From a virus: DNA of 30,069 nucleotides. Location of the stretch: IMG/VR virus record IMGVR_UViG_3300008217_000047, positions 1 through 30,069 of that record; one strand, given 5' to 3'. Made by a program: the position numbers and the translations under genes. Shown one piece after another: positions 3,636-26,223 of the stretch. How positions within the stretch are numbered: the first letter of the stretch is position 1; the number at the start of each line of letters is the position of its first letter. A model generated the notes under the pieces. The model was not told where the DNA came from. It did no database searches and saw nothing but the letters and a program-made list of their open reading frames with translations.

Positions 3636-4606
3636 CCTATGGTGAGATAACTACACATCTGCTGGATCTATGCTCACAGGACGCAGGAGGCTCTTTTGAG
3701 ACGTGGGTAGGCAGGACGGTAAACAACGTATACAGGAGGGTACAGGCAGAGGTGCAGGACGATAATGCCACTGACGAGATAACCTTTGCTACAGTAGCCA
3801 GCACCAGCCAGTATGGTATGCCTATCAACGTCTTACGAATACTCAACATTGATGATGGCACAGCCAACAGGTCTTTAAAGGCTATATCGTCAAGAGAGTA
3901 TGATAACGCATACCCTGGCCATACGACTACCGGGACGCCCAGAAGGTACTACGAGCTATTTAAGCGAGGGGTACAGTTCCAGCGTCCGTCAGCAGGGACA
4001 ATGGTGGTAGTGTCTAGCTCTACTGCCGACTCTGGTGGTGACTACAAGGCCAGGATACAGGGGCTGGACAGTAACAGTATTTTCCAGGATGAGCAGGTAG
4101 ACCTGAACGGGACTACCAACGTCACTACTACCCAGTCTTTTCTGGAGGTAAGGGCGGTCACTATTACGGCTACGTCAGGGAATACTGTTACAGGGACCGT
4201 GACGGTCTCAGATGACGGGTCTACTACCACTATGGCGCGTATACCTCCATCGGTAAAATATGCAGAGCACCAGTGGATAGAAATTTATCCTATACCTACC
4301 GATGCTAGAAACCTGACGGTACGTTGCCTTGAGCGCAAGCCCGACCTTATCAACAGCGATGACTGGCCACAAACAGACGATAGATTCCACGAGCTACTTA
4401 TCTTGGGAAGCAATGAATTACTAGTGGCTACGGGAAAGCCCGACCAAGCTGGCCGAATGCGCGCAGATTTTGAGGACAAGTTAAAACTCTACAAAGGAAC
4501 AACACAAAAACGACCTAACAGAGTGCATACCTTTGCGAATGTGCAAAACTCGCCAATGGTTCCATTCGATCGTCCATTGATTCCTGGAATTGATGTATTG
4601 CGTTAA
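3632..4606 (+). CDS. putative head-to-tail adaptor protein
   Basis: A 324-aa protein. The N-terminal helical pair (residues 1-45, including WVGRTVNNVYRRVQAE), beta-rich middle (~50-215, many Thr/Ser/Val) and C-terminal helical region (FHELLILGSNELL..., ~247-285) resemble the adaptor / tail tubular protein A type of podoviruses. It sits directly before the stabilisation-protein gene, the usual place. The last ~65 codons use CAA, CCA, CGA, CGT and TCG much more than the rest of the gene. The stop codon TAA overlaps the stop of the minus-strand HNH gene (shared TTAA). The codon change abuts that insertion. The call rests on position and architecture. Confidence 0.55.
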   Translation: MTYGEITTHLLDLCSQDAGGSFETWVGRTVNNVYRRVQAEVQDDNATDEITFATVASTSQYGMPINVLRILNIDDGTANRSLKAISSREYDNAYPGHTTTGTPRRYYELFKRGVQFQRPSAGTMVVVSSSTADSGGDYKARIQGLDSNSIFQDEQVDLNGTTNVTTTQSFLEVRAVTITATSGNTVTGTVTVSDDGSTTTMARIPPSVKYAEHQWIEIYPIPTDARNLTVRCLERKPDLINSDDWPQTDDRFHELLILGSNELLVATGKPDQAGRMRADFEDKLKLYKGTTQKRPNRVHTFANVQNSPMVPFDRPLIPGIDVLR

Positions 4607-5082
4607 ATGTGAGTCCAAGACTTCAGGTTAATTATTTTGCCTATTTGCATAGGGGATACTTTGAACATTTTTGCCATATACGCCTTAGAGAGAATACGGG
4701 AAGAGGCAAGATGACGGATAAGCAATACTTCTGGGGCTTTGAGTTTTGCTAAGGTGTTCTTTTCGCCTTGAGAATCTCTGGAACGACCTTTTGCCATCAT
4801 ATCTTTCATATTGTCTTGGTGGGTGCCTAAGAATAGATGTTTAGGGTTTACACACTTGGTATTGTCGCAGCGATGACAGACATGCATACTTTGTGGGATA
4901 TTACCGTAATGAATAAAGTAAGACATGCGATGGGCTTTCTCTCTACCGTCTACTTTGTCAGTAGAGCCTATCCGCATACGCCCATATCTGCTGTTGCCAA
5001 TGTGACCTTTCCAATGCCAGCAAGTATCGGTTTTTTCAATCAGGCTAAGAAAGCGTGTAATGTGATGTTGGGAAAGTTTCAT
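4603..5082 (-). CDS. free-standing HNH homing endonuclease 1
   Basis: A 159-aa protein encoded against the surrounding operon. The ATG at 5082 is chosen over one eight codons upstream because GGAGG lies five bases before it. The N-terminus has the CWHWKG...YG pattern common in phage HNH enzymes. The nuclease core is AHRMSYFIHYG, VCHRCDNTKCVNPKHLFLGT, then DNMKDMMAKGR. The C-terminal ~40 residues (ILSKAYMAKMFKVSPMQIG) look like a helix-turn-helix for target binding. It lies exactly between two structural genes, sharing the TTAA stop overlap on one side. A pseudoknot leader and a TATATT promoter element precede it. Role: a mobile gene that cuts a cognate site and copies itself by repair. Confidence 0.9.
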   Translation of the reverse strand: MKLSQHHITRFLSLIEKTDTCWHWKGHIGNSRYGRMRIGSTDKVDGREKAHRMSYFIHYGNIPQSMHVCHRCDNTKCVNPKHLFLGTHQDNMKDMMAKGRSRDSQGEKNTLAKLKAPEVLLIRHLASSRILSKAYMAKMFKVSPMQIGKIINLKSWTHI

Positions 5083-5100
5083 AGAACCTCCAATAAAATA

Positions 5101-5182
5101 GCCCACAAGTGGCTACCAGAGTACATCATTAAGATGTAAACTGCACCTGTGGGCCAATAAGAAAATAATATACTCTGGTAGC
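5101..5182 (-). ncRNA. pseudoknot leader RNA of HNH gene 1
   Basis: Read on the minus strand, stem A GCTACCAGAGTA (5182-5171) pairs perfectly with TACTCTGGTAGC (5123-5112). Stem B GCCCACAGGTG (5154-5144) pairs with CACTTGTGGGC (5111-5101) over 11 bp with one G-U. The order is A, 16-nt U-rich loop, B, CAGTT, a small CATC/GATG hairpin, A', B'. A' directly abuts B', so the stems can stack coaxially as an H-type pseudoknot. The U-rich TATTTTATT and then the ribosome site of the HNH gene follow. The same plan recurs at 7311-7400. I cannot match it to a named RNA family. Confidence 0.65.
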
Positions 5183-5188
5183 ACTGAA

Positions 5189-5218
5189 AATATACTACAA
5201 AAGGTGATGCAATGCCAG
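5189..5218 (-). promoter_or_regulatory. promoter-like element for HNH gene 1 leader
   Basis: The -10 box is TATATT (minus strand, 5194-5189). A weaker -35 candidate, CTGGCA (5218-5213), lies 18 bp upstream and overlaps the start codon of the divergent structural gene at 5212. The first base of the leader's stem A (5182) lies seven bases after the -10 box, at the expected transcription start, exactly as in the second leader. Confidence 0.5.
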
Positions 5219-6765
5219 ATGTTGAACCCAGTTTGCAGAAAAGTCCAATATTCAGGGTGCGGGGTCAGACGAATATGCTTTACCCCAACGTAGACCTTAA
5301 CCCTGAAAACACAGAGACGCTTTCCAATATAAACCTTACCGAGCGTGGCACAGCCAAGGTGCGCGATGGGTATGCCAAGTACAATACTACCCAGATCACA
5401 GAGTCTAGCGTTGCCAAAGATGTTACGGGCATAGCTCAGCTACCGTTCAAGGCAGGGACAGAGCTTGTCTTGTTTGCCGGTACCGTCTTCAACGAAGAGA
5501 CGGGAGGGACCAGGACAGCACGTACCGGGTCTTTGAGCCTTACGGACAATGCAGAGCTGCGGTGGCGCATTGTCTTCTTCCAGGACTCTATGATAGCTAC
5601 CAACGGCACTGATGAGACGGTGCGCTGGACGGGTTCTGGCAACGCTACGGATCTTACCTCTTCTGCCAACATACCTTTTACTGTTGTCAAAGACATTGTA
5701 CCGCACAGAAACTTGCTGGTTTTCTTACGTCCTACGGTAAGTGGGACGGATCATACTACCAGGGTTATGTGGTGCGACCTGAACTTAAGGCAGTACACGG
5801 CAGACATTACCAATGTGCCTACAGACTCTTTTGCAGAGGTATATGACCAGGGCGCACCTATTGTAGGGGGCGTAGACTTCAACGATACGCTATATATTTT
5901 TAAAGAGGACGGTTTCTACCCTTGCAGGATAAGCTACGATACGGGCTTTTTTGAACTCGACATCTTAGGAGCTATCAGGGGCTTTGAGCCTATAGCGGTT
6001 AACTCTTTGGTTACCAGGGTGGGTAGTCCCAGCTTCCTGTGGGTAGTAGCTAGAGACGGGGCGTATGTAGTCAACCCTGCCGACAACTCTTTTACCCTTA
6101 TCACCAGGGAACTGCAAAACGACTGGCTGAACCTGGCGCAGGACAGGCTTCAATATGCTGTAAGCTGGATACGCCAGAAAGACCACCAGGTACGTACGCT
6201 GTTAAGTTCTGCCTCTAACTCTACAGGGCATGACAGGGTGCTTGTATGGGACTGGGAGACGGGAGATGCGTGGTTTGATACCCCCAAAGACCAGATCAAC
6301 TATGCTGCAAGTGCTATCATATCGAATAAAGAGTATGACTTCCTGGGGTCTTCTGATGGTTTTATACACCAGGGCAATGACGAAGACCAGGCGCAGGACA
6401 ATGATGTAAGCTTTGACTGGGACATACAACACGTCCCTACAGACCTTGGCTTTCCCGGCATAGAGAAAAATATCATCAACGCTGTTACGTATTACAGGGC
6501 GCAGACGGGCCAGCAGACCATACAATTTGCTGTGAACAGGGACCAGGGGCGCTCTACCAAGGTTTCCACCAACCTGACGCTGGGGACATCACAGAAATGG
6601 GATACCGGCCTTAAGTGGGACTCTGGGCTAACATGGCCTGGAGGCACTAATGCCAAGCAGAGCGTCTTTGTTAACAGGATGGCAGAGACGGTAGCTGCTC
6701 AGTGGTCTGGGGACCAGGGCGCAGAAATACAGGCTGTTCAATATGAATTTGTTGTCGCTGAATGA
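5212..6765 (+). CDS. putative tail stabilisation / nozzle-like protein
   Basis: A 517-aa beta-rich protein. The N-terminus (FRVRGQTNMLYPNVDLNP... then NINLTERGTAKVRDGY, residues ~15-55) is the typical opening of podovirus tail nozzle / P22 gp10-like packaged-DNA stabilisation proteins. The centre (~70-400) has repeated blade-like strands with Trp/Asp-Gly turns, including VARDGAYVV and VLVWDWETGDAW, suggesting a beta-propeller-like fold. The C-terminal part ends in a compact beta region. It follows the adaptor gene, from which it is separated only by the HNH insertion. Its first ~15 and last ~10 codons use bases unlike the body of the gene, matching HNH insertions on both sides. Probable role: closing the tail tube after packaging. 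Confidence 0.6.
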   Translation: MPDVEPSLQKSPIFRVRGQTNMLYPNVDLNPENTETLSNINLTERGTAKVRDGYAKYNTTQITESSVAKDVTGIAQLPFKAGTELVLFAGTVFNEETGGTRTARTGSLSLTDNAELRWRIVFFQDSMIATNGTDETVRWTGSGNATDLTSSANIPFTVVKDIVPHRNLLVFLRPTVSGTDHTTRVMWCDLNLRQYTADITNVPTDSFAEVYDQGAPIVGGVDFNDTLYIFKEDGFYPCRISYDTGFFELDILGAIRGFEPIAVNSLVTRVGSPSFLWVVARDGAYVVNPADNSFTLITRELQNDWLNLAQDRLQYAVSWIRQKDHQVRTLLSSASNSTGHDRVLVWDWETGDAWFDTPKDQINYAASAIISNKEYDFLGSSDGFIHQGNDEDQAQDNDVSFDWDIQHVPTDLGFPGIEKNIINAVTYYRAQTGQQTIQFAVNRDQGRSTKVSTNLTLGTSQKWDTGLKWDSGLTWPGGTNAKQSVFVNRMAETVAAQWSGDQGAEIQAVQYEFVVAE

Positions 6766-6767
6766 AA

Positions 6768-7292
6768 CTATTTATTTATATTGGACTTGGGAGCAAAATT
6801 ATCAATGACATGCTTCCAATGAACCCTTTTAATTCTTTTATTAGCCGTAGCTTGAGAAATACGAAACATAAGGCCAAGTTTTCTATGGGAAAGATTAGTT
6901 CTTCTGGCAAGGAATAGTAACAGTCTAGCTTCTTCTTCTTTTAGTTTTGACATATGATGACGGGAACCTTTTGCTTTGACGGTATTGTTAGCACGGTTTT
7001 TTTGCATCATATCTCTCATATTGTCTGTTTGTGTTCCTTGGAATAGGTGCGATGGGCGAATACATTTTTTATTATCGCAATGATGGCAGATAAACAACCC
7101 GTCTTTTATGGGACCAACGAAAACTTCATAGGCTACGCGATGGGCATATTTCTTACTAAGCACCCCATTTCTGCAAATATTAAACTGGCCATACCCATGC
7201 CAGTAACAAGAGGCTTGCCATTCCCAGCAACCTATTTTTGTGATCTTGGTATGTCCCAAAAGTCTTTCGATATCCCTAACAAGATATTTCAT
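6768..7292 (-). CDS. free-standing HNH homing endonuclease 2
   Basis: A 174-aa protein on the minus strand. The ATG at 7292 follows a GGGGGT ribosome site; upstream in-frame codons run back through the structured leader and are not used. It has the same layout as HNH 1: CWEWQA...YG, AHRVAYEVFVG, ICHHCDNKKCIRPSHLFQGT, DNMRDMMQKNR, then a C-terminal helix-turn-helix (LSHRKLGLMFRISQATANKR). The two proteins are clearly related but well diverged, so they are not a recent local copy. The stop lies two bases beyond the stop of the stabilisation-protein gene (convergent). Likely a homing enzyme targeting this intergenic site. Confidence 0.9.
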   Translation of the reverse strand: MKYLVRDIERLLGHTKITKIGCWEWQASCYWHGYGQFNICRNGVLSKKYAHRVAYEVFVGPIKDGLFICHHCDNKKCIRPSHLFQGTQTDNMRDMMQKNRANNTVKAKGSRHHMSKLKEEEARLLLFLARRTNLSHRKLGLMFRISQATANKRIKRVHWKHVIDNFAPKSNINK

Positions 7293-7310
7293 ACTACCCC
7301 CATTAAAAAA

Positions 7311-7400
7311 GCCTCTCACCTGAGTGGCGATCAGAACAACCCTTGTAGGGTGGAACTGCACCCAAGCGAGAGGCAATAAAAAAAGGCTTATTCTGATCGC
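7311..7400 (-). ncRNA. pseudoknot leader RNA of HNH gene 2
   Basis: On the minus strand, stem A GCGATCAGAA (7400-7391) pairs perfectly with TTCTGATCGC (7336-7327). Stem B GCCTCTCGCTTGGGTG (7374-7359) pairs with CACTCAGGTGAGAGGC (7326-7311) over 16 bp including three G-U pairs. Between A and B lie 16 nt, U-rich. After B come CAGTT and a hairpin AGGGT/ACCCT (7351-7347 with 7343-7339). A' abuts B' with no gap. Six T's follow B', so stem B alone also looks like an intrinsic terminator placed just before the HNH ribosome site. Stem sequences differ from the leader at 5101 while pairing and loop sizes are kept. Confidence 0.7.
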
Positions 7401-7406
7401 ATTGAT

Positions 7407-7435
7407 AATATAGGTAAATACCTTATGAGTGGCAA
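7407..7435 (-). promoter_or_regulatory. sigma70-like promoter for HNH gene 2 leader
   Basis: On the minus strand, TTGCCA (7435-7430), a 17-bp spacer and TATATT (7412-7407). The leader's stem A begins seven bases downstream at 7400, which is where transcription should start. It overlaps the beginning of the plus-strand gene at 7425. Confidence 0.6.
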
Positions 7436-11160: not shown

Positions 11161-11348
11161 GGGTAAAGTGGACATCGCTCCTGTCGGGAGGGTGGGCCGC
11201 CATACAGATAGGACAGTGGCTGTGGGACACCGAGTGGGAGGTAGCTACAGTAGCACGCTTTATCAATGAGGTAGGGCCGTGGCTGTTGGTACCGGCAATG
11301 CTTGTGGCAGGACACTTATTAATTATCGCAGTGCTTAAAAACTTATAG
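11157..11348 (+). CDS. small two-TM membrane protein, putative holin
   Basis: A 63-aa protein overlapping the endolysin stop (ATGA). It has a first hydrophobic/aromatic segment (~9-24, GGWAAIQIGQWLW) and a second, clear transmembrane helix (~40-60, WLLVPAMLVAGHLLIIAVL). Size, two helices and direct coupling to the endolysin make a holin the best guess. The 52-aa protein at 10559 competes for that role. The last 14 bases overlap the convergent HNH gene 3. Confidence 0.6.
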   Translation: MRVKWTSLLSGGWAAIQIGQWLWDTEWEVATVARFINEVGPWLLVPAMLVAGHLLIIAVLKNL

Positions 11349-11793
11349 ATTTATCGTGATCTTTTTCAGCCTTTTTCCGAGCTTCTATGGCCTCTTCTTT
11401 TGTAGAGAATGAGCCTAACCATTTGGTTCTTATGACTGCATACCAAGGTTTTTTCCTATTACGCCACTTAACGCCTTCTACTCCACTTGTATTGTTTTTT
11501 CTTAAATGGACTCTTCTTATGCGAGCGTGGGTTGATGGGGTAATTAAACAAAGATTTTCTTTTCTATTGTCTAGGCCATTCCCGTTTTTGTGGTGAACAA
11601 CCATCCCTTCTGGGAGTTTCATAATGAGTCTATGCATTGACACTGTTCGTCCATTGAGTTTCTGTCCTCTTCTGGCATATCCGGTTGGACCTGATCTGTT
11701 CTGGACAAAGAACCAAGAGTGGCTAGAAAGCTGTAAATAGTCGTCGTCATCTACTATAGCTATTTTGTTTTGTGTTAGTTTTATACTTTTCAT
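11335..11793 (-). CDS. HNH homing endonuclease 3 with AP2-type DNA-binding domain
   Basis: A 152-aa protein on the minus strand. The ATG at 11793 follows an AAAGGAAG ribosome site; an upstream in-frame ATG lies before its promoter. The N-terminal part is KIAIVDDDDYLQLSSHSWFF, then YARRG...SMHRLIM and the HNH core MVVHHKNGNGLDNRKENLCL (~75-94). The C-terminal AP2-like domain is NNTSGVEGVKWRNRKKPWYA (~112-131) and WLGSFSTKEEAIEARKKA. This HNH-AP2 layout is common in phage homing genes and differs from HNH 1 and 2. It sits between the lysis cassette and ejection genes, convergent with the former. Confidence 0.92.
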   Translation of the reverse strand: MKSIKLTQNKIAIVDDDDYLQLSSHSWFFVQNRSGPTGYARRGQKLNGRTVSMHRLIMKLPEGMVVHHKNGNGLDNRKENLCLITPSTHARIRRVHLRKNNTSGVEGVKWRNRKKPWYAVIRTKWLGSFSTKEEAIEARKKAEKDHDKSISF

Positions 11794-11824
11794 CCAACTT
11801 CCTTTCGTTAATGAGTGTTTTTGT

Positions 11825-11853
11825 AATATACACGCATTAAGGCCAAAGGTCAA
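11825..11853 (-). promoter_or_regulatory. sigma70 promoter for HNH gene 3
   Basis: On the minus strand, TTGACC (11853-11848), a 17-bp spacer and TATATT (11830-11825). A near-perfect inverted repeat, TTAATGAGTGT (11808-11818) against ACACGCATTAA (11830-11840), brackets the -10 region with one mismatch. It could be an operator or a 5' hairpin. The pseudoknot leader seen for HNH 1 and 2 is absent here. Confidence 0.65.
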
Positions 11854-11868
11854 CAAAGGCAGGAAAAG

Positions 11869-13953
11869 ATGGCTTTAACCTCAGACCCTTCGTTACGGTC
11901 TAATGTAAGAGAACGGACCAAGAACCCTTTTGACCCTGAAGAGCGCGACAGGGTGCTTGGTGGCTCCCAGGCTATACAGGGGCAGATAAGCAACCTTGCC
12001 GGGGGCTTGAACTTCGACATTGACGCCCAGAGGCAGTCACGCACCAACCTCATAGAGCGCTCAGCAGAAGAAGAGCGTAACAGGCTGGGGAGGCTGTTTG
12101 CTTTAAGTCCTTCTGGTATCCAGCAGGGCAGGGCAGTAAGAGGCTTCGGGACGGTAGGGGCAGCGAGGCTTAACGCCCTGGACCAACTCGAGTCAGGCTT
12201 ACAGACAGAGGCCCTTACACAGAACAGGGCGAATATAGGAGCCTTGCAGGGTATCCTGGGGCAGCAGCAGCAGGGCAACCTTGCAGCAGGGTCTTTGGGC
12301 CTTCAGGCGCTGGGGCAAGCACAGCAGTTTACCGGGCAGGAGGGCGCACAGGCTTTGGCAGAGAGACAGACGGACATACAGCAGCAGGCACAAGACAGAA
12401 GCTTTGGGCTGCAAGAGCGTGGCTTGGGGCTTCAGGAAGAGATACTGCGTGGGCAGTTGGGCCTTGCTGAGCGCGGGCAGACGTTGGCAGAGACAACGCA
12501 GCGTGAAGACATAGGCTTTAGGCGTGAGGCCACACAGCAGCAGCTGGACATACAGCGCCAGCAGATAGCAGTGCAGGCAGACCAGTTTGCGCAGGGCTTT
12601 GGTCTTTCTACAGACCAGTTCTTGGAAGCCAAGAGGCAGTTTGATGCAGGGCAAACTTTGGGTAATGCTCAACTGGAGGAAGGTATCAGGCAGTTTAACG
12701 AGTCTCTGGGCTTGCAGGAGAGGGCGCAAAGCTTTGCGGAAGAAGTGCAGACGGGGCAACTAGACCTCTCGGAGAGGTCTCTTAATGAGAGCATTGCAGC
12801 CAGGATAGAGGGGCAGAGCATACAGGAGCGAGGGCTGGACCTTCAGTCATCTATAGAGTCTGGAAGGATGGACCTTGCTCACGACCAGCTAACAGAAAAC
12901 CGCCGGCAGTTTAATAAAGAAAAAGAGATACAGATACAACAGATAGCAGCGCAGCTAGGAATACAGAGAGACCAGTTTGAGGAAGTCAAGAGGCAGTTTG
13001 ATGCTGGAGAGATAAACCTTGATGAGCAGACAGCGGAGCAGATACGTCAGTTTGATTCCTTACAGTCGGCAAGAGAGACAGAGTTTAATACTACCATTGG
13101 TGAGCAGCAGAGACAGTTTGATACCAATATGACTAACCGCAGGCAGGAGTTTTCTGCGCAGTTCGGACTGCAAGAGGCTCAGATATTTGGTGGCGGTCCA
13201 GCGGTGACGTACACTCAGGAGGCTATGCAGGACGCTTTCGGGGCCAAGCAGGGTGACCCTAACTACAGAGAAGACCTGGATCTTAATGGTGATGGTGAGT
13301 TTGACTTCTCAGACTTCATAGAACTGTCTGCCAACGGGACTGACCTGGGTAATGGGATGATGCAGTTTATTCCTGACGATGGACGTAGGACGTTGGCGCA
13401 GCAGCAGCTAGACACGCAGCAGGGGCAGTTTGCTCAACAGTTCGGACTGCAAGAAGAACAGGTAGGGGAAGCTATTAGACAGTTTGATACCCAGGTAGCA
13501 CAGCAGGCAGCTCAGTTCCTAAGTAACTTCTCAGGGGTGGCCGTTAATGAGTTTGGTGGACCCAGAAGAATATGGGACCCCGATACTAAAGAGTGGAAGC
13601 AGCCTACGTCTTTACAACGGGAGTCTTTTGAAGAGGCCAAGACACAGTTTGATGAGCAGATGAACCAGAGCGCACAGCAGTTCGCAGAGAAAATGGGCTT
13701 ACAGTGGGACCAGATGAACAACGCAGAAAAGATGAGCATAGCAGGTATGGTCATCCAGGGCGCTAATGTAGCAGGTAACTTGGGGCTATTTGGCGGTAGA
13801 GATGGCAATGCAACAGGTGGAGGAGGTCTTGCAGGCAGTATAGGCTCGGGGGCGAGCATAGGCGCTGCCCTAGGGTCTATTGTCCCTGGCATAGGCACAG
13901 CAGTAGGAGGTATTATAGGCGGTGTAGGTGGTTTCTTTAAAGGGCTGTTTTAA
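11869..13953 (+). CDS. putative ejection/internal virion protein 1, Gln-rich coiled coil
   Basis: A 694-aa protein dominated by long Gln/Arg/Glu-rich helices (~50-620), with repeating units such as LGLQERGLGLQEE, AEQIRQFDS and QFDxx repeats that must form an extended coiled coil. Residues ~465-478 contain DLNGDGEFDFSDF, an EF-hand/dockerin-like calcium loop. The last ~70 residues are Gly/Ala/Ile-rich with a glycine-zipper (GSIVPGIGTAVGGIIGGVGG) that can insert in membrane. Long coiled coil plus hydrophobic tail, next to two further Gly-rich proteins, suggests proteins ejected to build a channel for DNA entry. A tape-measure role is an alternative. It is first in a block of three. Confidence 0.6.
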   Translation: MALTSDPSLRSNVRERTKNPFDPEERDRVLGGSQAIQGQISNLAGGLNFDIDAQRQSRTNLIERSAEEERNRLGRLFALSPSGIQQGRAVRGFGTVGAARLNALDQLESGLQTEALTQNRANIGALQGILGQQQQGNLAAGSLGLQALGQAQQFTGQEGAQALAERQTDIQQQAQDRSFGLQERGLGLQEEILRGQLGLAERGQTLAETTQREDIGFRREATQQQLDIQRQQIAVQADQFAQGFGLSTDQFLEAKRQFDAGQTLGNAQLEEGIRQFNESLGLQERAQSFAEEVQTGQLDLSERSLNESIAARIEGQSIQERGLDLQSSIESGRMDLAHDQLTENRRQFNKEKEIQIQQIAAQLGIQRDQFEEVKRQFDAGEINLDEQTAEQIRQFDSLQSARETEFNTTIGEQQRQFDTNMTNRRQEFSAQFGLQEAQIFGGGPAVTYTQEAMQDAFGAKQGDPNYREDLDLNGDGEFDFSDFIELSANGTDLGNGMMQFIPDDGRRTLAQQQLDTQQGQFAQQFGLQEEQVGEAIRQFDTQVAQQAAQFLSNFSGVAVNEFGGPRRIWDPDTKEWKQPTSLQRESFEEAKTQFDEQMNQSAQQFAEKMGLQWDQMNNAEKMSIAGMVIQGANVAGNLGLFGGRDGNATGGGGLAGSIGSGASIGAALGSIVPGIGTAVGGIIGGVGGFFKGLF

Positions 13954-20356: not shown

Positions 20357-20505
20357 TGACATCCTGGGTAGAACAAGAGTGGCTGGATGACGAAGAACGG
20401 GAAGAGCGCCAGTGGTGGATACAAAGGCTGGTCAATATTCTTGATACGCATGTGAACAATACCTGGAGGTTTGGGGTATATCCTGGCTACGGTAGACGGT
20501 GGTAG
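20356..20505 (+). CDS. small acidic/aromatic hypothetical protein (49 aa)
   Basis: Starts at the overlapping TAATG and ends at 20505. It is rich in Trp, Glu and Arg (MTSWVEQEWLDDEEREER, then QWWIQRLVNILDTHVNN). The end of the gene runs into the left arm of a 12-bp inverted repeat (20482-20493), so its last codons also form part of a folded RNA. No family recognised. Confidence 0.45.
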   Translation: MTSWVEQEWLDDEEREERQWWIQRLVNILDTHVNNTWRFGVYPGYGRRW

Positions 20506-20586
20506 GCACACCTACGCTGGTCTTACTGCAAAAAAATAAGACAGTTAGTTAGCCGTGACCGAGTTCAAATCTCAACCGTAGCCAGG
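20482..20586 (+). ncRNA. tRNA-like cloverleaf (possible degenerate tRNA-Cys)
   Basis: A perfect 12-bp closing stem CCTGGCTACGGT (20482-20493) / ACCGTAGCCAGG (20575-20586) encloses three arms. These are GTAGG-caca-CCTAC (D-arm position), GTCTTA/TAAGAC around a loop CTGCAAAAAAA (anticodon position, reading GCA after a T as in tRNA-Cys), and GAG-TTCAAAT-CTC, a textbook T-loop. The loop has four extra A's, the D-arm region is too long and two T-stem pairs are A-C mismatches. It is thus not a normal functional tRNA by eye. It could be a decayed tRNA, a tRNA-like RNA or an attachment remnant. Confidence 0.4.
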
Positions 20587-24663: not shown

Positions 24664-25321
24664 ACGGCTGGAAGAGATACGCAAGTTGGGACATCTCACA
24701 GATGAGGGCTATTACTTAACACTGGATGAACGGGATGAACTGCTGTCCCACATAGACACGCTTACCAATACGCTTGAAGGCTATATCGAATATGGAGTGG
24801 CTGAATACTGCGAAAAGCTGGAAGCAGACATAGACACGCTTACCGAGAAGAACTATAACCTGACAGCAACGGTCCACTGGCACGAGAAGCAGTTGGCAGA
24901 GGCGCAAGGACTATTGGCTGGCGGTGATGGCTGGAAGCAGTGTGCAGAGAAAGCGATGGACGAGCGTGACAGGCTGAAAGCTAATGAACGTACACTTGTA
25001 TCGAGGCTGAACCGTCAGGGTGTGCTTATCCACAACTGTAAAGAGGACATACAGACGCTTGAGGCTGAAGTTGAGCAATATAAACTGGACGGTGTGAGTA
25101 TTGATCCCAATGATGTAGCGATGGTTCAGAAGAATTTCGATCTGACCGAGAAAGTCCAGAAGCTTGAGGCTGAACTGAAATATGCACAGGGCGAGTATCA
25201 AGAGCTTGCTCCAGTATGCGAACACCTCGCAACCGCTGTGGAGGGGCTGGAAGTGTATGCGGTTGAGTCGTATGGTGAAGTTGCTCGAAACGCCCTCGCT
25301 AAGATCAAGGAGGCTGAGTGA
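24650..25321 (+). CDS. coiled-coil protein
   Basis: A 223-aa protein, nearly all predicted coiled coil: PERLEEIRKLGHL, ERDELLSHIDTLTNTLEGYI, KLEADIDTLTEKNYNLTATV, EKVQKLEAELKYAQGEYQEL. It begins with two ATG codons (24650, 24653); the second has better spacing from GGAGG. Such proteins are frequent in phage early regions; the partner is unknown. The stop overlaps the start of the homing-type endonuclease (TGATG). Confidence 0.6.
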   Translation: MMTPERLEEIRKLGHLTDEGYYLTLDERDELLSHIDTLTNTLEGYIEYGVAEYCEKLEADIDTLTEKNYNLTATVHWHEKQLAEAQGLLAGGDGWKQCAEKAMDERDRLKANERTLVSRLNRQGVLIHNCKEDIQTLEAEVEQYKLDGVSIDPNDVAMVQKNFDLTEKVQKLEAELKYAQGEYQELAPVCEHLATAVEGLEVYAVESYGEVARNALAKIKEAE

Positions 25322-26223
25322 TGCCTTTGCTGACAAGCAGGAAGGTATGGTCTGAAAAGGATATTGCATTCTTGCGAGATAAGTACGCCAGCAAGGGGCT
25401 TGAGTGGTGCGCTGATAGATTGATGAGAAGTCGAGGTAGTATCAGGGCAATGGCATCTCAGCTAAAGCTGAGAGCTGATAAAAATAACGAGGTACACAAA
25501 AATGCTATTAAGAAAAGAATAGCAACGGTCACCGGGACTAAAAGGCCTAAACAGTCAATAGCAATAAAAAAAATGTGGGAAGAGGGGAAGTTTAAAAAGC
25601 ATTCTCTCGAGAGAAGGGCTGAGGCTTCTAGGCAGAGAAAGAAATGGCTTGAAGAGAATGAACATCCTAGAGGTTATTTAGGGCATAGGCATTCAAAAAA
25701 AACTAGAAAGAAACTGTCAGAGGCAGGAAAGAAGTCATGGCAAGATTTGACAACAGGACATCATTCTGAGAGTAGAAAGCAGAAGTTAAGCGACAGGAAC
25801 AGAGGGCGTAGAAGTTTAGGAAAAAATTTAGACTATGTTTATTCCAGGGGCAAGGGAGGTAAAAGAGAAGACTTGGGACAATATTTTAGATCAAGGTGGG
25901 AGGCTAACTATGCACGTTATTTAAACTTTTTAAAGAAGGTAAAGGCTATACATGCTTGGAAGTTTGAAAGCCAGACGTGGTATTTTGAAGAGATAAAGAG
26001 GGGGACACGGTCTTATACTTGTGACTTTGAGGTGTGGGAAAACAAAGGCGAAGACCCTTATTATGTGGAGGTTAAGGGGTGGATGGATGCGAAGAGCAAG
26101 ACACGTCTTAAGAGAATGGCTAAGTATTATCCTGATATAGAGATACGGCTAGTAGGGGAAAAAGAGTACAAGGAAATACAAAAGAAGTTTGCCCCTATGC
26201 TAAAATACTGGGAAACGGAATAG
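25321..26223 (+). CDS. PD-(D/E)XK homing-type endonuclease with HTH and NUMOD3-like motifs
   Basis: A 300-aa protein. An N-terminal helix-turn-helix (WSEKDIAFLRDKYASKGLEW, ~10-29; LMRSRGSIRAMASQLKLRA, ~34-52) is followed by two or three NUMOD3-like DNA-contact motifs in a Lys/Arg-rich linker (~92-165, e.g. HSKKTRKKLSEAGKKSW and HHSESRKQKLSDRNRGR). The nuclease is C-terminal: FRSRWEANYARYL (Glu195), YTCDFEVW (Asp235), YYVEVKGW (Glu250, Lys252) and a helix SKTRLKRMAKYYPDI. AAGGAGG precedes the ATG. Codons are A-rich (AAA, AGA) unlike neighbours. Probably a mobile gene on the same strand as its host operon. Confidence 0.8.
   Translation: MPLLTSRKVWSEKDIAFLRDKYASKGLEWCADRLMRSRGSIRAMASQLKLRADKNNEVHKNAIKKRIATVTGTKRPKQSIAIKKMWEEGKFKKHSLERRAEASRQRKKWLEENEHPRGYLGHRHSKKTRKKLSEAGKKSWQDLTTGHHSESRKQKLSDRNRGRRSLGKNLDYVYSRGKGGKREDLGQYFRSRWEANYARYLNFLKKVKAIHAWKFESQTWYFEEIKRGTRSYTCDFEVWENKGEDPYYVEVKGWMDAKSKTRLKRMAKYYPDIEIRLVGEKEYKEIQKKFAPMLKYWETE

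Follow-up and report, generated by a model that had tools for sequence, protein, structure and literature searches.

The window that we analysed, the whole of a 30,069-base IMG/VR virus record, comes from an unclassified phage whose + strand carries podovirus-like late genes. Among these late genes sit two genes on the minus strand, HNH1 and HNH2 (Table 1), whose products are, judging by their sequences, homing-endonuclease-like. The two genes share 48.5% codon-by-codon identity (35% at the protein level), and the stop codon of HNH1 overlaps that of a + strand tail-adaptor gene (TTAA). The protein encoded by the + strand gene at 5212-6765 had no relatives in IMG/VR or in cultured phages.

Several other elements of the window drew our attention. 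A third HNH gene (11335-11900, minus strand, PF13392) has a good promoter, TTGACC-17-TATATT, and a short leader without a pseudoknot. The 301-aa protein encoded at 25318-26223 on the + strand begins with an HTH-like part, weakly matches Holliday junction resolvases and endonucleases in PHROG, and is possibly another mobile endonuclease. An intergenic, strongly structured region lies 3' of a DNA methyltransferase gene (20480-20586, + strand; CCTGGCTACGGT...ACCGTAGCCAGG); it has a 12-bp closing stem and a T-loop-like GTTCAAATC, and ARAGORN called no tRNA in it.

Table 1. HNH genes, leader elements and predicted promoters in the window
Feature	Position	Strand	Remarks
HNH1	4603..5082	-	159-aa HNH_3 endonuclease; Pfam PF13392 E 1.3e-11, PHROG 1872/59
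Leader 1 spacer, 18-nt U-rich TATTTTATTGGAGGTTCT, SD GGAGG (5087-5091)	5083..5100	-	sequence
Leader 1 stem B' CACTTGTGGGC	5101..5111	-	
Leader 1 stem A' TACTCTGGTAGC, abuts B'	5112..5123	-	
Leader 1 hairpin C, CATC TTAAT GATG	5124..5136	-	
Leader 1 linker CAGTTTA	5137..5143	-	alignment
Leader 1 stem B GCCCACAGGTG	5144..5154	-	
Leader 1 loop L1, 16 nt, U-rich	5155..5170	-	sequence
Leader 1 stem A GCTACCAGAGTA	5171..5182	-	predicted +1 = 5182
Leader 1 promoter CTGGCA-18-TATATT	5189..5218	-	predicted; -35 in first codons of + gene at 5212
HNH2	6768..7292	-	174-aa HNH_3 endonuclease, C-terminus HTH-like; E 1.4e-14
Leader 2 spacer, 18-nt TTTTTTAATGGGGGTAGT, SD GGGGG (7297-7301)	7293..7310	-	sequence
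Leader 2 stem B' CACTCAGGTGAGAGGC, then TTTTTT	7311..7326	-	
Leader 2 stem A' TGTTCTGATCGC	7327..7338	-	
Leader 2 hairpin C, ACCC TACAA GGGT	7339..7351	-	
Leader 2 linker CAGTTCC	7352..7358	-	alignment
Leader 2 stem B GCCTCTCGCTTGGGTG	7359..7374	-	
Leader 2 loop L1, 14 nt, U-rich	7375..7388	-	sequence
Leader 2 stem A GCGATCAGAATA	7389..7400	-	predicted +1 = 7400
Leader 2 promoter TTGCCA-17-TATATT	7407..7435	-	predicted; -35 in first codons of + gene at 7425

A preliminary description of this DNA had proposed that the same architecture precedes both HNH genes on the minus strand (5101-5182 and 7311-7400), and this placement proved correct. Both leaders form an A-L1-B-hairpin-A'-B' pseudoknot, in the 5' to 3' order TATATT, 6 nt, stem A, loop L1, stem B, linker, hairpin C, A', B', 18 nt and ATG. 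No nucleotide separates C' from A' or, as had been noted, A' from B'. The lengths described for stem B, 11 bp in leader 1 and 16 bp in leader 2 with G-U pairs, were reproduced, and so was the CAGTT followed by a short hairpin, which we resolve into a 7-nt linker (CAGTTTA or CAGTTCC) and the 4-bp hairpin C with its 5-nt loop. The description of stem A as 12 or 10 bp, followed by a loop of exactly 16 nt, holds for leader 1 and needs correction for leader 2: when both leaders are counted alike, each has a stem A of 12 bp (with one G-U in leader 2), and the U-rich L1 of leader 2 is then 14 nt, reaching 16 only with a 10-bp stem A. A 13-bp reading of stem A in leader 2 would share a base with hairpin C. 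The loop of stem B measures 32 nt in both leaders, and 18 nt separate B' from the AUG.

In both leaders a U-tract directly follows a GC-rich stem, with GGGC of B' running into TATTTTATT in leader 1 and GAGAGGC into TTTTTT in leader 2; at least 6 of the 8 bases after the stem base are T in each case, the tract of leader 1 being interrupted. The SD lies outside the knot, and in the calculation for leader 1 the residual hairpin amounts to only -4.2 kcal/mol. When only nested folds are considered, L1 pairs with the SD in both leaders, and an alternative, SD-hiding state may exist according to these models.

The pseudoknot scored far above chance. With a helix-anchored descriptor leaders 1 and 2 reached 71 and 66, the next-best site of the window scored about 50 with a looser junction, and 1,000 dinucleotide shuffles per leader reached no more than 39.5 and 43.5, respectively. 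When the leaders were aligned by hand along their stems, 16 of the 27 shared pairs were unchanged, 10 were changed on both sides, one on one side and none was broken; five extra pairs in stem B of leader 2 were co-inserted on both strands. An unedited MAFFT alignment still contained 8/27 double-changed pairs and 96.3% paired cells, and shifting the partner by 1-3 columns in that alignment reduced the paired cells to 31-47% and left no double changes. All G-U pairs are found in the minus-strand RNA, and since they would read A-C on the other strand, the minus-strand RNA is the one that is folded. The compensatory changes that the preliminary description took as the mark of a functional RNA fold are thus borne out, and a covarying pseudoknot in both leaders is well supported by the alignments. 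With two leaders the covariation is strong for this pair, but it does not constitute a family-level test.

A scan of 4.5 kb for consensus promoters returned three sigma70-like sites, two of which are the leader promoters; as shuffled sequences are expected to contain 6.1 such sites, the promoter scan alone is weak evidence. From both predicted promoters, transcription would start on the base that opens stem A, the seventh after TATATT, so that the transcript would begin with the pseudoknot, in line with what had been proposed earlier.

The leaders resemble each other more than the genes they precede, with an identity of 67% (MAFFT columns) to 73% (pairwise) versus 48.5% for the HNH codons, and their similarity begins at the -10 box and extends as far as the start codon. 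We placed 168 HNH proteins in a tree, few branches of which are well supported; ordered by distance from HNH1, HNH2 comes 141st, and the leader-bearing HNH proteins formed no cluster at this low resolution. Given leaders that are more alike than the HNH codons, and HNH proteins that stand apart in the tree, which is suggestive only, the leader seems to be a cassette of its own, with a similarity that goes beyond paralogy of the HNH genes.

Searches by sequence returned no relatives of the window leaders. Rfam 15 contained no family above the gathering cut-off, motif scans of IMG/VR and GTDB contigs yielded only chance matches that were coding or unpaired, and blastn against cultured phages gave no match. 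A covariance model built from the two leaders, with the window itself as positive control, was run on roughly 80 loci and 100 phage records and matched nothing but the window, leaving two copies in all. The preliminary description had likewise assigned no known family. An HDV-like ribozyme was rejected on the missing P4/J4-2, with its catalytic C, between P1' and P2', and a group I intron core on the abutting A' and B', which leave no P8 between P3' and P7'; Rfam was negative for both. A type III antitoxin RNA was likewise discarded, the pseudoknot being present as a single copy per gene and not as tandem repeats before a toxin gene.

A strict descriptor run upstream of about 95, and then about 175, HNH loci collected through protein searches found no near-zero-gap knot. 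This null result stems from the rule that A' and B' be 0-2 bases apart; without it two leaders, L104 and L072, came up. In this relaxed form, which tolerates bases at the A'/B' junction and requires a T-run, L104 scored 61.5 and L072 58.5 among 173 unique HNH leaders, after which scores dropped to 42. The two are independent leaders of the same topology upstream of phage HNH genes; L104 carries TAAAAT 7 nt before stem A and has TTTTTTATTGCC in common with leader 2 of the window. The preliminary description had expected further homologous, covarying leaders near HNH genes: no homologue by sequence appeared in IMG/VR, GTDB or cultured phages, but leaders of the same topology do occur at L104 and L072, and a covarying family reaches an HNH gene in the Klebsiella phage RothD (see below).

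A wider scan dropped the T-run requirement and covered 3.7 Mb of fetched, largely phage DNA. At least 4 T in the 7 bases after B' were found in 10/21 non-coding versus 5/106 coding matches (Fisher P 3e-6, a value inflated by the AT-richer non-coding DNA). Clear members of the class are L384; L399, which has loops UACUGG and GAAA as in L072, the GAAA hairpin lying between A' and B' in both; L386, a knot leader in front of a NucS-like nuclease, from the phage that also carries L104; the two divergent leaders of L408; and L124, L150 and L394 of bog phages. The order promoter, knot, U-tract, SD and ATG is common to L104, L072 and L408, where it appears twice; L386 follows it too, except that it has no clear promoter. 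A promoter matching 9-10 of 12 positions, with its -10 ending at most 15 nt from stem A, accompanies 9/11 sites versus 4% of AT-rich random positions, an imperfect control for intergenic DNA in which AT-richness inflates promoter counts. In most of these other leaders B' lies about 14-22 nt from the start codon. Leaders of this topology are not specific to HNH genes, as other genes follow them too. The earlier idea that the RNA controls endonuclease expression is supported as probable.

Other structured elements surfaced in the same DNA. At 19330-19578 of L408, divergent promoters flank a palindromic, operator-like TTGACTAGTTTGTCAA and each transcript begins with a different pseudoknot; from its sequence the region looks like an early-region switch. 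Three bog phages carry an unannotated covarying pseudoknot RNA with a terminator (L124 6891-7005, L150 9198-9304 and L394 14222-14336, all on the minus strand), which lies directly upstream of RF02932 (Betaproteobacteria-1 RNA) and not before a gene. Folding z-scores pointed to several other phage HNH genes with very stable leaders. At the HNH genes of L075, L239, L272 and L101 stable hairpins hide the SD or the start codon (L101 has a TATAAT at the hairpin), and these are apparent metagenomic cases of I-TevI/mobE-type control, as judged from sequence.

As a control we scanned lambda, HK022, bIL170 and P22, which yielded one strong knot just 5' of a gene start, at 39529-39629 of P22; 14 nt separate it from what appears to be the start codon of rha. 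The knot considered at lambda tR' was rejected, with a score in the background range and nested stems that pair better. Leaders of the P22 type are present in 59 phage records, preceding rha in P22 and ES18, KilA-N in HK544, Emek and PhiR49, and an HNH_3 + AP2 homing endonuclease in RothD. With RothD placed in register, two stem A pairs are double-changed (A-U to G-C and C-G to U-A), and seven phages together show three further double-changed pairs in stem B, in an alignment where a one-column misalignment of RothD lowers the count for A. The conserved start codon lies about 14-15 nt after B'; annotated starts fall inside the leader RNA for P22 rha (39575, within L428 39529-39646) and the RothD endonuclease (1006, within L429 1006-1042). 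These leaders lack a U-tract and a clear sigma70 promoter, and the P22 element, too, had no match in Rfam. Most of it is overlapped by P22F, an 89-nt stable P22 RNA that was sequenced from infected cells and published in 2026 without a known function (PMC13397905). P22F ends 6 nt before rha and, as sequenced, is missing the 5' A strand.

We propose, at roughly even chances, that a modular 5'-leader pseudoknot with a terminator-like stem keeps endonuclease expression low. The two leaders would be copies of one cis-acting RNA cassette, extending from the -10 box to the start codon and placed before two counter-oriented homing-endonuclease-like genes. RNA polymerase would begin at the first base of stem A, and the emerging RNA would fold hairpin C, next A-A' and next B-B'. 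In the resulting pseudoknot, C', A' and B' would run on as a single unbroken strand and the RNA 5' end would lie at the A/B junction. Stem B and the U-tract would then act as an intrinsic terminator (attenuator), such that most transcripts stop as a knotted RNA of about 90-100 nt and some read into the HNH gene, and this partial read-through would keep a potentially harmful nuclease scarce. The mRNAs that result from read-through would have a 5' end that is blunt and protected, and their ribosome site, 18 nt away from the knot, would be free. Any regulating factor is, like termination itself, something that we infer. The 32-nt loop of stem B exceeds that of a standard terminator (3-8 nt), and a standard scan detects no more than a shortened, 5-bp form of it, in leader 2; moreover, as the P22-type leader has no U-tract, termination would not be common to all members.

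The main rival, which we consider unlikely, is a translational operator or 5' stabiliser that works without termination: the knot would seal the 5' end at the edge of the 30S footprint, with a repressor bound or the mRNA protected, and the U-tract would be a translation enhancer. The 18 nt between B' and AUG in both leaders, the similar distance in most others, the P22-type leader, which has the same topology but no U-tract, and the ribosome site that the leader 1 knot would leave free (the -4.2 kcal/mol hairpin) agree with such an operator, and pseudoknot operators are known for T4 gene 32 and rpsO (S15) (PMC3014915). The enrichment of T-runs after B' and the GC-rich stem base are what it leaves unexplained. 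The short knotted RNA might instead be a trans-acting product whose terminator only happens to precede an HNH gene; the promoter-to-terminator unit of about 90-100 nt, the bog-phage RNAs next to RF02932 that have no close start codon behind them, and the detection of P22F as a free RNA fit this. We regard it as improbable, as most members are followed at a short, constant distance by an SD and start codon, and stems that vary freely offer no obvious conserved sequence for pairing with a target.

Mobile-element ends often carry inverted repeats, and the pairing might thus reflect a repeat at the DNA level, or chance. Both the shuffles and the covariation contradict this, the G-U pairs exist only in the minus-strand RNA and the pairs follow pseudoknot order relative to the start codon, making it very improbable. 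Hardly credible is a self-cleaving ribozyme or other catalytic RNA: the A-B-C-A'-B' order does equal the HDV order P1-P2-P3-P1'-P2' minus P4, and L072 and L399 have their GAAA hairpin between A' and B', but the window leaders, with 0 nt at that junction, have no J4/2 and no catalytic C, Rfam ribozymes gave no match, and the predicted transcription start already provides the 5' end.

Returning to the attenuator, independent leaders before nuclease and regulator genes in other phages suggest an overlooked add-on RNA switch that limits expression. More tentatively, modular pseudoknots in 5' leaders, many of them with a terminator, might form a class that is widespread but has gone unrecognised, and that is shuffled among genes that are harmful in excess or need timing (homing endonucleases, other nucleases, Rha/KilA-N antirepressors), with varying stems and a preserved topology, U-tract and start-codon distance. 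If true, a cassette-like covarying leader in several unrelated phages and P22 relatives would represent a portable expression limiter for selfish nucleases, and would suggest a role for the P22F RNA.

The combination of features in these leaders was not found in the literature searched, mostly outside subscription journals. It is established that RNA structures can limit phage homing endonucleases; those of I-TevI, segB, mobE and seg43(25) are hairpins (PMC2988022). The window leaders resemble them as stable RNAs just 5' of such an endonuclease gene that has a promoter of its own close by, and in seg43(25) the hairpin sits just before the ribosome site, not over it. However, the known cases are simple hairpins, most of which hide the ribosome site, whereas the window leaders have a pseudoknot that would leave the site free and a terminator-like U-tract. 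The reference phage pseudoknot operator, T4 gene 32, similarly places a pseudoknot upstream of a phage ribosome site and has A/U-rich sequence after it (PMC3014915). Its knot is small, has no long stems or U-tract terminator and has a known repressor, in contrast to the long stems and U-tract of the window leaders. The lambdoid leaders of rha, KilA-N and homing endonuclease genes share the A-L1-B-loop-A'-B' topology, with 14-15 nt to the start, and the modular occurrence that includes an HNH gene, but differ in sequence and in lacking a U-tract and a clear sigma70 promoter. In lambda PR'-tR' (6S RNA), a phage promoter, a short leader and an intrinsic terminator precede genes, and Q is needed for read-through; the window leaders would resemble it in this promoter-leader-terminator order. 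By analogy, the window leader may work like an attenuator or like a gene-32-type leader, and would belong to either group only by likeness.
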